Positions 37,381-42,672 of a stretch of DNA of 64,000 bases are shown here, one piece after another. The stretch is from Phreatobacter aquaticus (GTDB lineage Bacteria; Pseudomonadota; Alphaproteobacteria; Rhizobiales; Phreatobacteraceae). Each line of letters starts with the position of its first letter. Positions within the stretch are counted from its first letter, which is position 1. The notes below the pieces were generated by a model. The model was given only the letters and a program-made list of their open reading frames with translations, was not told the origin of the DNA and ran no database searches. The stretch lies in NCBI RefSeq assembly GCF_005160265.1, contig NZ_CP039865.1:2008828-2072827 (forward strand), given 5' to 3'. A program made the translations under genes and the position numbers.

Positions 37381-38706
37381 ATGCGTCTCCCCTTCTCGCC
37401 CAGGTCAGGCGATCGAAAGACAGCGCGCCCCTCCTGCCTGCTCCCGTTCAAAGGGCTTGTCGGCCGATTCATGTCGGACCGGCGCGGCGGCGCCGCCATT
37501 CTTTTCGGCATCGCCGCCTTGCCCCTGCTGCTGATGGCGGGCGCCGCTGTCGACTACACCTATGCCAGCCGGGTCAAGGTGAGGCTGGACAATGCCGCGG
37601 ACATGGCCGCGCTGTCTGCGGTCAACCGGACATCCATGGCGCTCTCTGCCGAAGCGGCAAAGACTGTCGCGGCCAACACGTTCGTGGCTGATGCCGGCAC
37701 CCTGAACAGGACGGTCCTCACCTCCACATCGGTCACAATCGGGGTCTCCGGGACATTGCGGACCGCCGAGGTCGCCTATTCCGCGACCGTCAGCAACGTC
37801 TTCATGGGGCTCGGGGGAATTTCCACGACGACGGTCTCGGGCACCGTCAAGGCAACATCGGCCGTGCCCCTCTACATCGATTTCTACTTGTTGCTCGACA
37901 ATTCACCATCGATGGGCGTAGGTGCGACGACGGCCGACATCAACAAGTTGATCGCCAATACGTCCGACAAATGTGCCTTCGCCTGCCACATTACCGGATC
38001 GACGTCCGATTATTACGCGCTCGCAAAGAAGCTGGGCGTCGCCATGCGCATCGACGTCGTGCGCACGGCCACCCAGTCCCTGATGGACACGGCAACCTCG
38101 ATGCTGACGGTCGCGGGCCAGTATCGCGCGGCGATCTACACGTTCGGGTCGAGCTGCACCAAGACCGGCCTGACCACGATCTCGACACTGACTGCCAGCC
38201 TGTCCACGGCGAAGACCGCGGCCAGCGCCATCGACCTGATGGCGATCCCCTATCAGGGCTACAACAACGACCAGTGCACCGATTTCGACAACATTCTGGC
38301 AGCGGCCAACACCGCCATTCCGACGCCCGGCGACGGAACCTCGGCCGCCAGCCCGCAGAAGATCCTGTTCTTCGTCACGGACGGCGTGGCCGACTATTAT
38401 TATCCGTCGACCTGCACTGAACCCACCACCGGCGGCCGGTGCCAGGAGCCGCTGACCACGGCCATCTGCACCAAGATCAAGGCGCGCGGCATCCGTATCG
38501 CGGTGCTCTACACGACCTATATCCCGCTCACCACGAACTCCTGGTACAACACCTGGATCAAGCCGTTCCAGTCGAAGATCCCGACCAATATGGAGGCTTG
38601 CGCGTCTTCCGGGCTCTATTTCGAGGTCAGCCCATCCAGCGGCATCTCCGAGGCGATGACGGCCCTGTTCCAGAAGGCGGTGGCCTCGGCCAGGCTGACG
38701 CAATGA
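37381..38706 (+). CDS. TadG-like pilus-assembly protein with von Willebrand A-like domain
   Basis: A 441-residue protein. Residues 30-75 contain the TadE/TadG anchor (MSDRRGGAAILFGIAALP then LLLMAGAAVDYTYASRVKVR). The Flp-assembly helix follows, then a vWA-like domain: DFYLLLDNSPSMGVGATTAD has the MIDAS DxSxS pattern as DNSPS, and ILFFVTDGVADYYYP is the central strand. TadG is exported and anchors Tad pili. It ends in RLTQ, like the protein at 17992. The ATG at 37381 has GGAG eight bases upstream; earlier ATG at 37345 is closer than usual to a GGAGGG. No other tad genes are nearby. Confidence 0.85.
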   Translation: MRLPFSPRSGDRKTARPSCLLPFKGLVGRFMSDRRGGAAILFGIAALPLLLMAGAAVDYTYASRVKVRLDNAADMAALSAVNRTSMALSAEAAKTVAANTFVADAGTLNRTVLTSTSVTIGVSGTLRTAEVAYSATVSNVFMGLGGISTTTVSGTVKATSAVPLYIDFYLLLDNSPSMGVGATTADINKLIANTSDKCAFACHITGSTSDYYALAKKLGVAMRIDVVRTATQSLMDTATSMLTVAGQYRAAIYTFGSSCTKTGLTTISTLTASLSTAKTAASAIDLMAIPYQGYNNDQCTDFDNILAAANTAIPTPGDGTSAASPQKILFFVTDGVADYYYPSTCTEPTTGGRCQEPLTTAICTKIKARGIRIAVLYTTYIPLTTNSWYNTWIKPFQSKIPTNMEACASSGLYFEVSPSSGISEAMTALFQKAVASARLTQ

Positions 38707-38739
38707 CGGGTGAATCCATATAATTCGATAATTCTAGAA
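38695..38739 (+). promoter_or_regulatory. arsR promoter with overlapping probable ArsR operator
   Basis: CTGACG (38695-38700) and TATAAT (38719-38724) make a sigma-70-like promoter with an 18-base spacer. AATTCGATAATTCTAGAA (38722-38739) overlaps the -10 element and recurs with three changes upstream of the next gene (39130-39147). TTCTAGAA is a small palindrome. Confidence 0.65.
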
Positions 38740-38762
38740 AGACGGTTGACCAGCGCGGCGCA

Positions 38763-39107
38763 ATGCTGCATCGTAGCGTCATGGACATGATTGTCATCGC
38801 CACCCGTCTTGAAGCTCTCGGCAACCCGACCCGCCTTGCGATCTATCGCGCGCTTGTGCGGGCGGGGGCTGCTGGCCTGCCGGTCGGCAAGCTCCAGGAG
38901 CGCCTGGCGATCCCGGCTTCGACGCTGTCGCATCACCTGGCCAAGCTTTGTGGCTGCGATCTGGTTTCGCAGACCCGGGAGAGCACCGTTTTGCGCTGCC
39001 GGGCGAATTATCAGGTCATGCGCGATCTGGTGGGCGCACTTGAAGATGAATGCTGCGCCGATGCCGCCTGCGGCGCCGACGTTGGAACAGACGCTGCGGT
39101 GGCCTGA
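38763..39107 (+). CDS. arsR: ArsR/SmtB family metalloregulator
   Basis: A 114-residue winged-helix repressor (108 if ATG 38781 is used). The HTH is in IPASTLSHHLAKLCGCDLVS. C-terminal DECCADAACGAD gives a CC-x4-C triad, resembling the C-terminal three-cysteine As(III) site of Acidithiobacillus ferrooxidans ArsR but with slightly different spacing; CGC at about residue 63 is a further possible thiol site. It likely binds the repeated operator upstream of itself and of the next gene, and is released by arsenite or an organic trivalent arsenical. Confidence 0.87.
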   Translation: MLHRSVMDMIVIATRLEALGNPTRLAIYRALVRAGAAGLPVGKLQERLAIPASTLSHHLAKLCGCDLVSQTRESTVLRCRANYQVMRDLVGALEDECCADAACGADVGTDAAVA

Positions 39108-39129
39108 CGGGCTATCTCTTGGGTCTGTA

Positions 39130-39147
39130 AATTCGATGGTTCTGGAA
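39130..39147 (+). promoter_or_regulatory. Second probable ArsR operator
   Basis: AATTCGATGGTTCTGGAA matches the arsR operator at 15 of 18 positions. It lies 20 bases before the ArsO-like gene start, so repression could act on both the arsR promoter and this internal site. Confidence 0.6.
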
Positions 39148-39167
39148 TGATAAAAGGAGTGGATCAC

Positions 39168-40484
39168 ATGAGCATCCTGCCCGTTATTGTCATCGGATCC
39201 GGCCCTGTGGGCCTGGCCGCCGCCGCCGAACTTGCCGAGCGCGGCCTGCCCTTCATCGTGCTGGAGAAGGGACCTCGTCCCGCCTTCGCCGTCGAATCCT
39301 GGGGCCATGTCCGCCTGTTCTCGCCCTGGTCGTTCAACGTCGCCCCCGCCGCCGAACGTCTGCTCGCCACCACCGGCTGGCGCCGTCCGCCGGGCGCCGT
39401 CCATCCGACCGGCCGCGATCTGCTTGACCTCTATCTGAAGCCGCTTGCGGCTCATGCAGCACTTGCTCCGGCGCTGGTCTTCGACGCCGAGGTGACCGCG
39501 GTCGCGCGGGCCGGCACCGACCGGGTCCGCAATGAGGGCCGGCAGGCCAAGCCCTTCCTCGTCCGCTATCGCAAGGATGGATCGGAACAGGAGGTGCGGG
39601 CTTCCGCGGTGATTGACACGTCCGGCACTTGGTCGTCCCCGAACCGCAGCGTCTCCGGCAGTCTTGGCGCCGTCGGCGAGACCGCTCCGGACGTGGCGCG
39701 CCACATATCCTATGCCATGCCCGATGTGCTGGGCGCGGGCCGGCGGCGTTTCGCCGGCCGCAAGGTTGGCGTCCTCGGCTCAGGCCATTCCGCCATCGGG
39801 ACACTTCTCGATCTGGCGAAGCTTGCCGACGCCGAGCCCGGCACGAGCGTTGTCTGGCTCTTGCGCTCCGAGGCCATCGATCCGGCGTTCCGCGAAGGCG
39901 CGCGCGACCAGCTTGCCGCGCGTGGCGCTCTCTCGGTCGATGCGGCGCGGGTGGTCGATTCCGGCAAGGTCGAGGTTCAGACCGGCATCCGGCTGGCGGC
40001 CATCGAGCCGCGCACCGGTGGCCTGCGGCTGGTGACCGAGGCGGGCAGCACGATCGATCTCGACGAATTGGTGGTGGCGACCGGCTTCCGTCCCGATCAT
40101 GCGCTCGCCGGCGAATTGCGCCTCGACCTCGATCCGGCGCTTGAATGCCCGACAGGCCTTGCCCCGCTGATCGATCCGAACCTGCATTCCTGCGGCACGG
40201 TGCGGCCCCATGGCGAGGCACTGCTCGCCCATCCCGATCGTGGCTATTACATCGCCGGCATGAAGAGCTATGGCCGCGCGCCGACCTTCCTCATGGCGAC
40301 CGGCCACGAGCAGGTGCGCTCCATCGTCGCCCATCTCGCCGGCGACACGGTGGCGGCCGCCAGGGTGGAACTGGTCCTCCCCGAGACGGGGGTCTGTTCC
40401 AGCAGTCTGCCGGCAGCTGCAGCGCAGCCAAGCGCATCGTCCTGTTGCGGGGCGAAGCCGAAGCTGCTCGAAACGCTAGGATAA
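39168..40484 (+). CDS. ArsO-like FAD/NAD(P)-binding oxidoreductase
   Basis: A 438-residue flavoprotein monooxygenase-like protein. VIVIGSGPVGLAAAAELAER is the FAD site, GVLGSGHSAIGTLLDLAKLA the NADP site, and LVVATGFRPDHAL the linking ATG motif. The C-terminal tail CSSSLPAAAAQP then SSCCGAKP is Cys-rich, as in ArsO-type proteins encoded beside arsenic regulators. ATG at 39168 has AGGAG eight bases upstream. It lies between arsR and an MFS exporter in one operon. Oxidation of a trivalent arsenical is a plausible but unproven role. Confidence 0.82.
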   Translation: MSILPVIVIGSGPVGLAAAAELAERGLPFIVLEKGPRPAFAVESWGHVRLFSPWSFNVAPAAERLLATTGWRRPPGAVHPTGRDLLDLYLKPLAAHAALAPALVFDAEVTAVARAGTDRVRNEGRQAKPFLVRYRKDGSEQEVRASAVIDTSGTWSSPNRSVSGSLGAVGETAPDVARHISYAMPDVLGAGRRRFAGRKVGVLGSGHSAIGTLLDLAKLADAEPGTSVVWLLRSEAIDPAFREGARDQLAARGALSVDAARVVDSGKVEVQTGIRLAAIEPRTGGLRLVTEAGSTIDLDELVVATGFRPDHALAGELRLDLDPALECPTGLAPLIDPNLHSCGTVRPHGEALLAHPDRGYYIAGMKSYGRAPTFLMATGHEQVRSIVAHLAGDTVAAARVELVLPETGVCSSSLPAAAAQPSASSCCGAKPKLLETLG

Positions 40485-40500
40485 GGCGCGAGACATTGCG

Positions 40501-41739
40501 TTGACCGGCAGGTTGCCTGCCGCCCCAGGATGCCTGCCGGACATGTTTGCCTCGCTGCCCTTCATTCTGACCGCCCTCGGCATCACCCAGATCGTCTCCT
40601 ATGGCACCATGCTCTACGGCATATCGGTGCTGGCCATGCCCATGGCGGTCGACCTCGGCTGGTCATCGACCTTCATCTATCTCGGCTTTTCGGTGTCGCT
40701 GCTGGTCGGCGGCATCGTGGCCAAGCCCGCCGCGCGCTTTCTCGAGCGGCGCGGCGGCCGCCTGACGCTGACGATCGGCTCGCTGGTCGGGTCGTTCGGC
40801 CTGTTCATGCTGTCGCAGACCCGCGACCAGGTCGTCTATGTCGCGGCCTGGATCGTGCTGGGGCTCGCGTCCCGGTTGACGCTGTATGATGCCGCCTTCG
40901 CAACGCTGGTCGAATTCTACGGCCTGCGTGCCCGCCGGCCGATCTCGATCCTGACGCTGTTCGGCGGCCTTGCCTCGACCATCTTCTGGCCGATCTGCCA
41001 CTATGCCAATGAAGCCATCGGATGGCGTGGCGCCTGGCTCGTCTGCGCGGCCTCCGTTCTGGTGCTCTGCACGCCGTTGCACATGCTGATGCCGCGCCAT
41101 GGTGTGGTGATGGAGAACGGCCCCGGCGAGAATGGTGCAAGCCCGGATCCCGAGCCGCTTGTGCCGGCCGAGGCCAAGTCCCAGGCCATCCTGCTGCTCG
41201 GCATCGCCTTTGCCGCCAATGCCTTCATCTCCACCGCCTTGTCGGCCCATTTCATTCCGGCCGTTGTCACCATGGGCGTCTCGGCCGCCACCGCCATGTG
41301 GATCGCCTCGCTGCGCGGCGTGTTCCAGACGCTCGGCCGCTTCCTCGAAATGCTGTTCGGCAAGAATCTCGACCCGTTCATGTTCGCCAACATCTCCACC
41401 GGCATCATGGTGGTCGCCTTCGCGCCGCTGGCCGCCGGAGGCGCCTCCACGCCGGCCCTGCTCGCCTTTTCCGTGCTGTTCGGCATCTCGCTCGGACTCA
41501 TCACCATCGTGCGCGGCGCGGTGCCGCTCGTCCTGTTCGGGCGCCACGGCTATGCCGGCGTGCTGGCAAGCCTCGCAACCCCCGGCCTGATCGCCACTGC
41601 CGCCGCCCCCACCGCCTATGCCTATGTGCTGGACATGTGGGGGCCGGTCGTCGGCTTCTGGCTGATGTTCCTCGTCGCCGTCATGTCATTCGGCGCCACG
41701 CTGGCTCTTGCATGGCGCTTCCGCAAGGGCACAAGCTAG
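40501..41739 (+). CDS. MFS transporter, probable arsenical or related exporter
   Basis: A 412-residue protein with about twelve transmembrane segments and the MFS loop (ARFLERRGGRLTLTIG, the loop 2-3 motif in altered form). The TTG at 40501 is 17 bases after the ArsO-like gene; an ATG at 40543 would give a more standard N terminus. MFS exporters of the ArsJ/ArsK type are known from arsenic operons and pump trivalent arsenicals or arsenate esters. The operon position supports export of an arsenic species; assignment to ArsK or ArsJ needs alignment. Confidence 0.8.
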   Translation: MTGRLPAAPGCLPDMFASLPFILTALGITQIVSYGTMLYGISVLAMPMAVDLGWSSTFIYLGFSVSLLVGGIVAKPAARFLERRGGRLTLTIGSLVGSFGLFMLSQTRDQVVYVAAWIVLGLASRLTLYDAAFATLVEFYGLRARRPISILTLFGGLASTIFWPICHYANEAIGWRGAWLVCAASVLVLCTPLHMLMPRHGVVMENGPGENGASPDPEPLVPAEAKSQAILLLGIAFAANAFISTALSAHFIPAVVTMGVSAATAMWIASLRGVFQTLGRFLEMLFGKNLDPFMFANISTGIMVVAFAPLAAGGASTPALLAFSVLFGISLGLITIVRGAVPLVLFGRHGYAGVLASLATPGLIATAAAPTAYAYVLDMWGPVVGFWLMFLVAVMSFGATLALAWRFRKGTS

Positions 41740-41760: not shown

Positions 41761-42672
41761 ATGATTCTGGAATTCTGGCAGGGCGTGGGCGACCCGTTCA
41801 GGGCCGCTGCGGTCATCGTGCGGGCCTTTGTCGACATCGGATCGCTGGCCACTGCCGGTCTGGCGCTGTTCCTGGTCTTCATGAGCGGCGAACTCACGAC
41901 CGAGGAAACACGCAGTGCGCGCCGCTGGCTGCTGCTCATGGCGCTGATTGGGCTGATCGCAAACTTCGGCTCGTTCCCGCTCCAGGCGATCGAGGTGGCG
42001 CGCGGGCCCCAGGGCGCGCAACGCGCCGAAATCTATGCTCTCGTCATGCGCTCGCCATTTGGCGATGCCCTGCTCCTGCGCTCGGGCGGCATCCTTCTGG
42101 CACTGGCGGCGCTGGCGCGCAGTGCCGGAGCGGCGGGGATCGCGACCGTTGGCGCGGTGCTCGTCGCGGCGAGCTATGTCGCGGCAGGTCACACCACGCA
42201 ATTCCGCCCTCGGCAGGAACTGGTCGTAATCCTGACCTTGCACATGACGGCCCTGGCCTTCTGGTTCGGGGGATTGCTCGGCGTGCGCGCGGTGGCGCTG
42301 CGGCGCGATCCGGAATCGGCTGCCGAGACCCTCTATGTCTGGGCACGCCAGGCCGGCTTCTTCTTCCTTCTGGCGCTGGGTGCCGGGCTGTTGGCGGCCT
42401 GGTATCTCGGCGGCACCTGGCGGAGCCTCACCGAATCCTGGTTCGGCTGGATCGTGTTCGCCAAAAGCGCCATCGTGCTGTTCGTGCTCGCCTCGGTCTA
42501 TGCCGCCCGCTTCCGCCACCTGCCGCTGATGGCGCGGGGGGACGTGCTGGCCGCCGCCGCCCTCAGACGATCGGCCGGCCGGCAATTCCTGCTGGGGGTG
42601 CTGCTGATCTATCTCAGCGCCGAACTGGCCTTCGTCGCGCCGCTCGACATCGGCCATCGGTTGCCCTTGTGA
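41761..42672 (+). CDS. CopD-domain copper resistance-like membrane protein
   Basis: A 303-residue inner-membrane protein with about eight transmembrane helices. The C-terminal half (GHTTQFRPRQELVVILTLHM, then FWFGGLLGVRAVAL) has the conserved His of the CopD domain; LTLHMTALAFWFGGL is the core. CopD proteins are linked to copper uptake or resistance. It starts 22 bases after the MFS gene, and its stop overlaps rppH (GTGA), so it may be cotranscribed with both neighbours. No copC is adjacent. Confidence 0.85.
   Translation: MILEFWQGVGDPFRAAAVIVRAFVDIGSLATAGLALFLVFMSGELTTEETRSARRWLLLMALIGLIANFGSFPLQAIEVARGPQGAQRAEIYALVMRSPFGDALLLRSGGILLALAALARSAGAAGIATVGAVLVAASYVAAGHTTQFRPRQELVVILTLHMTALAFWFGGLLGVRAVALRRDPESAAETLYVWARQAGFFFLLALGAGLLAAWYLGGTWRSLTESWFGWIVFAKSAIVLFVLASVYAARFRHLPLMARGDVLAAAALRRSAGRQFLLGVLLIYLSAELAFVAPLDIGHRLPL

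Follow-up and report, generated by a model that had tools for sequence, protein, structure and literature searches.

A natural two-operator layout in a predicted arsR-flavoprotein-MFS metalloid defence cassette of Phreatobacter aquaticus

The window analyzed here is a stretch of 64,000 nucleotides (nt) of the Phreatobacter aquaticus genome (contig NZ_CP039865.1, positions 2,008,828 to 2,072,827 of the forward strand; all coordinates below are those of the window unless stated otherwise). It contains a cassette of three genes, encoding an ArsR repressor, a flavoprotein, and a transporter of the major facilitator superfamily (MFS). Comparison with related loci makes it likely that these genes, perhaps together with a CopD-like gene, form a trivalent-metalloid defence operon with two-operator autoregulation, the most likely function of which is sensing, oxidation, and export of toxic arsenic or antimony compounds. 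In our best reading of the sequences, the cassette belongs to a known kind of arsenical-defence unit, and the new variant part is a conserved natural operator duplication accompanied by a probably leaderless arsR. We give even chances to a broader proposal, in which the Alphaproteobacteria possess a conserved natural two-operator arsenical switch, with a leaderless arsR, a first operator before the promoter, and a second one acting as a roadblock before the effector genes, thereby allowing a standing supply of the repressor while an oxidase that consumes NADPH and oxygen is silenced very tightly. The elements of the cassette are as follows.

38722..38739, plus strand: operator 1 (O1), AATTCGATAATTCTAGAA, 5' of arsR
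38746..38751, plus strand: probable -35 hexamer of the arsR promoter, TTGACC, with TTGAC conserved past the operator
38769-38774, plus strand: weak -10 candidate of the arsR promoter, CATCGT
38781..39107, plus strand: arsR, encoding an ArsR/SmtB repressor with a C-terminal CC-x4-C motif (first in-frame ATG at 38763)
39130..39147, plus strand: operator 2 (O2), AATTCGATGGTTCTGGAA, in the arsR-flavoprotein intergenic gap, 408 bp from O1
39153..39159, plus strand: Shine-Dalgarno-like AAAGGAG of the flavoprotein gene, read from the sequence
39168..40484, plus strand: flavoprotein gene (FAD/NAD(P)H), with an alternative start at 39147
40543..41739, plus strand: MFS transporter gene with ArsK as the nearest model; the listed open reading frame (ORF) opens at TTG 40501

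A sequence-only reading of this DNA had proposed a duplicated 18-base ArsR site, and both copies were recovered, O1 without mismatches and O2 with three (15/18), while the mean number of matches over 100 dinucleotide shuffles was 0.00. O1 has the inverted-repeat architecture TTCGA-N6-TAGAA. Genome-wide, a 17-base pattern that covers the two operators has exact matches only at these two positions, the next best match having two mismatches. A wider ArsR regulon is not supported by this search, though near matches exceed a reversed control.

We gathered 90 loci encoding a homologue of the flavoprotein; in 61 of them an ArsR gene lies directly upstream on the same strand. Two duplicates (L032 of L005 and L033 of L003) were set aside, and the remaining 59 arsR-bearing loci were divided into 21 used for refinement of a weight matrix and 38 used for testing. 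One further duplicate (L113 of L042) is still counted among the 38 test loci and the 49 upstream sites, but was removed from the ArsR-type, cluster, and promoter counts; six plasmid regions (L139-L144) are outside the operator counts. At a threshold of 15 bits, an upstream site was called in 20 of the 21 training loci and 29 of the 38 test loci, and an intergenic site in 19 and 21 loci, respectively. For null windows placed inside the flavoprotein genes (1180 per length), the 99th percentiles were 8.3 and 7.8 bits and the highest scores reached 15.3 and 15.6 bits, and hence the threshold admits a rare chance match. With a matrix built without the locus under study, the site pair occupied the top two positions of the locus in 16/21 cases.

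The intergenic site is tied to one type of ArsR, being present in 39/45 loci with an ECC-type repressor ([EQ]CC) and in 0/13 loci with other types. Among the 45 ECC-type loci, which include the window, 43 have the upstream site and 37 have both sites. In the six NCC-type loci, five upstream sites and no intergenic ones were called, so that none has both, and the seven loci with an ArsR lacking the CC pair have neither. When the ECC-type loci were thinned at 80% or 70% ArsR identity, both sites were retained in 19/23 and 10/14 clusters, respectively. Sequence comparison thus lends good support to the earlier suggestion that ArsR exerts double control: the second site is found again in many genera, at an equivalent position and alongside one ArsR type, and the exact pattern has no other match in the genome.

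Several observations weigh against the two-operator interpretation. The intergenic site falls below the threshold in 6/45 ECC-type loci, of which three score 10.9-13.8 bits and two have a gap of just 17 or 23 nt, whereas one (L079) has neither feature; the upstream site falls below it in 2/45 (14.4 and 14.0 bits). The locus counts are not independent, because related loci share ancestry. The two sites of one locus are barely more alike than sites taken across loci (mean mismatches 4.7 versus 5.0). Finally, near matches to the 17-base pattern with at most three mismatches number 66 genome-wide, compared to 28 for the reversed control.

The distance between O1 and O2 varies from 365 to 434 bp in the 37 ECC-type loci with both sites and tracks the length of arsR; no common helical phase was seen by eye in these loci. 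A run of at least five T, absent from the window, lies between the arsR stop codon and O2 in 18/39 ECC-type loci (for instance, L010, L012, L050, L054, L057, L059, and L062), where it could serve as a partial terminator. In two loci whose ArsR lacks the C-terminal CC pair (L116 and L120), TTCGNCGAA-like sequences precede both arsR and the flavoprotein gene, possibly representing a double operator of different specificity.

The probable -35 element of the arsR promoter is conserved in the relatives. TTGAC occurs within 16 nt past the upstream site in 36/43 ECC-type loci, and at a distance of 4-8 nt in 38 of the 49 sites scoring at least 15 bits. The -10 element is poorly conserved, with at least four of six matches in 10/36 loci, the window not being among them. 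All 36 loci with TTGAC have an in-frame ATG 34-37 nt from its start, and just 3/36 have a Shine-Dalgarno-like motif before the first arsR ATG. This spacing and the scarcity of such motifs fit a leaderless transcript, and judging by these sequences arsR is probably leaderless, starting at ATG 38781. The initial reading had placed the operator over the -10 element of arsR. Indeed, a TATAAT at 38719-38724 overlaps the first three bases of O1, and this part of the claim stands; however, the hexamer is not kept in the relatives, and O1 sits just 5' of the conserved -35 element. Since it is TTGAC after the site that the relatives conserve, we rejected TATAAT as the main -10 element, though it may belong to an extra promoter. 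O1 is placed like the ars operator of R773, which is described in passages of PMC3918153 as lying upstream of the ars promoter.

The same data bear on the role of O2. It could serve an internal promoter, in which case arsR and the flavoprotein-MFS pair would be two separate ArsR-controlled transcription units. The conserved position of O2 directly ahead of the flavoprotein gene is consistent with this, as is a loose TTGAC-like match within the 45 nt before O2 in 17/39 ECC-type loci. On the other hand, TTGAC follows the intergenic site in 0/39 ECC-type loci, as opposed to 36/43 for the upstream site; in the 19 training loci with an intergenic site, O2 ends 9-33 nt before the chosen start of the flavoprotein gene; and no promoter-like match was found at O2 in a scan of the window. 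We therefore regard an internal promoter as rather unlikely, noting that this and the two other alternatives considered below are compatible with one another and with the two-operator model. O2 lies directly before the Shine-Dalgarno-like motif of the flavoprotein gene, and such a motif follows O2 in 35/39 loci.

The repressor itself is a member of the ArsR/SmtB family, with 63.3 bits against the NF033788 model (cut-off 55) and with the HTH_20 (PF12840) and HTH_5 (PF01022) domains above the Pfam cut-offs; its best structure match by sequence is 6j05, an ArsR, over residues 7-101. The predicted CC-x4-C triad is present as C97, C98, and C103 (numbered from the ATG at 38763) and forms a candidate inducer site. 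The third cysteine is missing from 6/45 ECC-type repressors. In AfArsR of Acidithiobacillus ferrooxidans, the C102S substitution preserves binding of organoarsenicals and abolishes high-affinity binding of As(III), according to passages of PMC4287715. As the window ArsR retains all three cysteines, it could sense both As(III) and organoarsenicals.

The link of the cassette to arsenicals was supported by its neighbourhood in other genomes. Among 20 plasmid regions picked from the matches, 19 are annotated, and 14 of these 19 contain other ars genes, the cases including Bosea, Afipia, Streptomyces FR-008, Rhizobium rhizogenes, Nitrobacter, and Priestia. The neighbours are ArsJ in Neotabrizicola, ArsN1 in Cytobacillus and Paenibacillus, and arsA, arsD, and arsC in Lysinibacillus; arsC and acr3 occur near some cassettes elsewhere. 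Against this link, the remaining 5/19 annotated regions (two from Rhodococcus, one each from Roseomonas and Hydrogenophaga, and a Staphylococcus plasmid) contain no ars gene beyond a regulator of the ArsR or another type. Together with the ArsR cysteines, the ars genes in these chosen regions bear out the designation of the cassette as an arsenic-type operon. A flavoprotein homologue is also carried by SAP008A, a 10-kb mobilizable plasmid of Staphylococcus sp. 693-2 from poultry litter (L055). Organoarsenical feed additives were formerly used in poultry.

The absence of arsC, arsB, and arsM, noted from the sequence, holds at the locus and needs a qualification for the genome. No match to the acr3 and ArsB models was found genome-wide; the 12 genome-wide matches to the ArsM model are all under its cut-off (best 59 of 263 bits), and the ArsH model has matches below the cut-off only (36 of 292 bits). 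However, a separate operon at about 542-544 kb of the same genome (L145:3507-5549) comprises an arsR-like gene, a thioredoxin-type arsC-like gene, an aquaporin-like gene, and a glutaredoxin-type arsC. One arsC exceeds its model's cut-off, and the second arsC-like gene and the aquaporin-like gene are below theirs. The cassette as the only arsenic system of the genome was accordingly rejected. The division of labor with the arsC-aquaporin operon favours a role for the cassette beyond inorganic arsenate.

Alternatively, inorganic As(III) and Sb(III) could be the main signals of the operon, with an only incidental link to organoarsenicals. Its repressor has three cysteines, the same number that AfArsR uses for As(III) in passages of PMC4287715, and cassettes elsewhere adjoin arsC and acr3. 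Yet the genome already has the separate arsR, arsC, and aquaporin operon, some cassettes lie beside ArsJ or ArsN1, and the ECC-type repressors lacking the third cysteine (6/45) are in a state like that of the organoarsenical-binding AfArsR C102S (PMC4287715, in the passages available). We consider a mainly inorganic role less likely than not.

The second gene was initially called ArsO-like, which is a wrong family name. Its product scores 38 bits against the ArsO model NF040505, far below the cut-off of 425, and is 29% identical to ArsO of Streptomyces sp. FR-008 over 207 amino acids (E 0.002), so ArsO was rejected as the family of this protein. No curated NCBIfam equivalog matched it above its own cut-off. 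Both the structure model and two dinucleotide-binding motifs, for FAD and NAD(P), place it among the two-dinucleotide-binding flavoproteins (FMO/YpdA/TrxR fold, FMO standing for flavin monooxygenase): GxGPxG is present in 86/87 homologues and the second motif, GxGxS, in 87/87. Strong homologues (E <= 1e-60) were found in 47/397 genomes drawn from the order and in 33/385 drawn from the class, where each draw contains the genome of the window and the draws overlap slightly.

A Cys-containing tail of the flavoprotein had also been proposed and is indeed present, comprising C417, C433, and C434 in the numbering from 39147. The alignment of homologues (A1) omits L038, which has a stop codon. Among the 87 homologues, C349 and C417 (C342 and C410 in the numbering from 39168) are invariant, and the positions of the tail CC pair, C433 and C434 (426-427 in the numbering from 39168), are kept in 79 and 83. 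At least two CC pairs follow TGVC in 62/87 homologues, the window protein not being one of them. Many homologues (for instance, L049, L054, and L059) have a longer Cys-rich tail, CCGGP...ACC...GCGC or close to it, and the tail of the window protein is shortened. The structure model has a mean pLDDT (predicted local distance difference test) of 82 with residues 406-438 below 50, and the modelled tail is probably disordered.

The fold comparison is relevant to the chemistry of the flavoprotein, and part of it weighs against an oxidase. The best solved match of the model is YpdA, a bacillithiol disulfide reductase (7a76; Z 28.8, root-mean-square deviation (rmsd) 3.1, 317 aligned residues, Foldseek E 1e-19), and bacterial flavin monooxygenases follow with Z 24.8-25.6, rmsd 3.8-4.1, and 309-313 aligned residues, among them 4a9w (Z 25.6, rmsd 3.8, 311 aligned). 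The fingerprint of class B flavin monooxygenases is FxGxxxHxxx(Y/F/W); it occurs in 0/87 homologues, so that assignment to class B fails, and CxxC within the first 400 residues is likewise found in 0/87. Given the closeness of the two matches and the absence of both motifs, the fold alone leaves the choice between an oxidase and a reductase undecided. With NADPH, a reductase would act on pentavalent organoarsenicals, disulfides, or mixed As-S adducts; export of the trivalent arsenical itself would then fall to the MFS protein, as reported for ArsK. Besides the YpdA match and the missing FMO fingerprint, this agrees with ArsK being the nearest model of the MFS partner and with the organoarsenic reductase activity of an ArsH reported in the title of PMC9137774. 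The lack of CxxC and the FMO matches close behind YpdA speak against it, as does a review that counts both ArsV and ArsH as methylarsenite oxidases partnered with the exporters ArsW, ArsP, or ArsK. Overall, a reductase appears unlikely. Oxidation and export of organic trivalent arsenicals, as proposed in the initial reading, would be consistent with the flavin/NAD(P)H fold, the invariant cysteines, the MFS partner, the separate arsC-aquaporin operon, and the analogy with the ArsV/ArsW pair.

Profile matches bear out the third gene as encoding an MFS protein. Its best model is ArsK (NF033733), with 279.3 bits, below the equivalog cut-off of 400; ArsK is also the best model for all ten MFS proteins encoded at the same position in other records, two of which (from Ensifer and Rhizobium rhizogenes) exceed the cut-off. 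An ArsK-type MFS gene was detected by tblastn downstream in 57/90 loci. A hidden Markov model (HMM) built from 52 MFS proteins matches 53 of the 87 longest downstream ORFs, nearly all of them its own seeds, and two ORFs missed by the HMM, when scanned, proved to be MFS_1 proteins of other subfamilies. Many loci stop 1500 bases past the match, so these counts are lower bounds. In the annotated plasmid regions, an MFS gene follows the flavoprotein gene on the same strand in 15/19 cases and lies upstream in Paenibacillus, and none is annotated in Staphylococcus, Lysinibacillus, and one further region. The MFS partner is not uniform, since four loci of the same genus (L008, L009, L010, and L012) have a distant ArsK-type MFS gene or none; the next gene in L008 encodes an MFS protein of another subfamily.

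Two further genes flank the cassette.

Ends at 38706: gene of a TadE/G-like protein, directly preceding the cassette
41761..42672, plus strand: gene of a CopD-like membrane protein, 21 nt past the MFS stop codon

The CopD-like protein matches NF033808 with 63 bits (cut-off 195). Its gene adjoins the MFS gene in five loci of the same genus with the same MFS type (L003-L007) and may be the fourth gene of the operon. A search of five other loci gave no match, although these break off too early to tell; a weak operator match before the gene scores near background.

Based on these data, the following mechanism may be envisaged. In the absence of an inducer, ArsR bound at O1 would exclude RNA polymerase from the promoter, and ArsR bound at O2 would stop or slow leaky transcripts ahead of the effector genes, so that the effectors would remain silent even as some repressor is produced. 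Bridged by a trivalent arsenical or antimonite at C97, C98, and C103, ArsR would leave both sites. The cysteines of the flavoprotein could then capture the trivalent species, which would be oxidized with FAD and NADPH to the pentavalent state, in which it is less toxic; export of the substrate or the product would be the task of the MFS protein. If O2 is indeed a roadblock, this explains how a costly flavin enzyme is kept silent while the sensor is still made, and could provide tight natural parts for arsenic biosensors.

The cassette represents a widespread kind of arsenical-defence unit, and the analysis corrects the ArsO label and brings out a flavoprotein family with invariant cysteines. 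The closest known system is ArsV/ArsW, in which, according to a review and citing texts, the methylarsenite oxidase ArsV and the methylarsenate exporter ArsW act together; this makes the cassette an operon of known kind. The likeness, a flavoprotein with a partner exporter, is one of description, and by this analogy the window flavoprotein may be an ArsV. Among the 40 listed of 133 records, there was no homologue from Paracoccus as a candidate for the published ArsV. A cited title states that an organoarsenical-oxidising flavin monooxygenase is widely present in soil bacteria. The paper on ArsK reports in its title the export of As(III), Sb(III), Rox(III), and MAs(III); ArsK resembles the window MFS protein as its best curated model and differs in the score (279 versus 400 bits) and in that the MFS proteins of some relatives belong to other subfamilies. 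ArsO of Streptomyces sp. FR-008 is, like the window protein, a flavin-dependent oxidoreductase of ars clusters, and FR-008 has, in addition to the annotated ArsO, a separate homologue (49%) of the window protein, encoded next to an MFS gene. No link between Phreatobacter and arsenic was seen in the titles or abstract openings of the papers found.

As for regulation, AfArsR (Cys95, Cys96, Cys102; passages of PMC4287715) likewise has an adjacent C-terminal pair and a third cysteine, spaced as CC-x5-C rather than CC-x4-C. The R773 ars operon shares ArsR autoregulation and an operator 5' of the ars promoter (PMC3918153, in part), but has an ArsR site of Cys32/34/37 (passages of PMC4287715) and an ArsA/ArsB pump in place of the flavoprotein and the MFS protein, and in the passages of PMC4287715 and PMC3918153 its second ArsR site arises only through engineering. 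No report of natural double ArsR sites appeared among the open-licence papers listed in searches for them. The closest evidence that a site such as O2 matters comes from engineered arsenic bioreporters, in which a second operator separates arsR from the gene downstream; in passages of PMC4287715, this added site slightly lowered the background and accelerated the response, and in those of PMC3918153, it is said to cut background expression. These reporters are man-made in Escherichia coli, whereas the layout in the window is natural and conserved, with another type of ArsR and another site. If the two-operator switch operates as proposed, it is the same circuit that biosensor engineers later made by hand.

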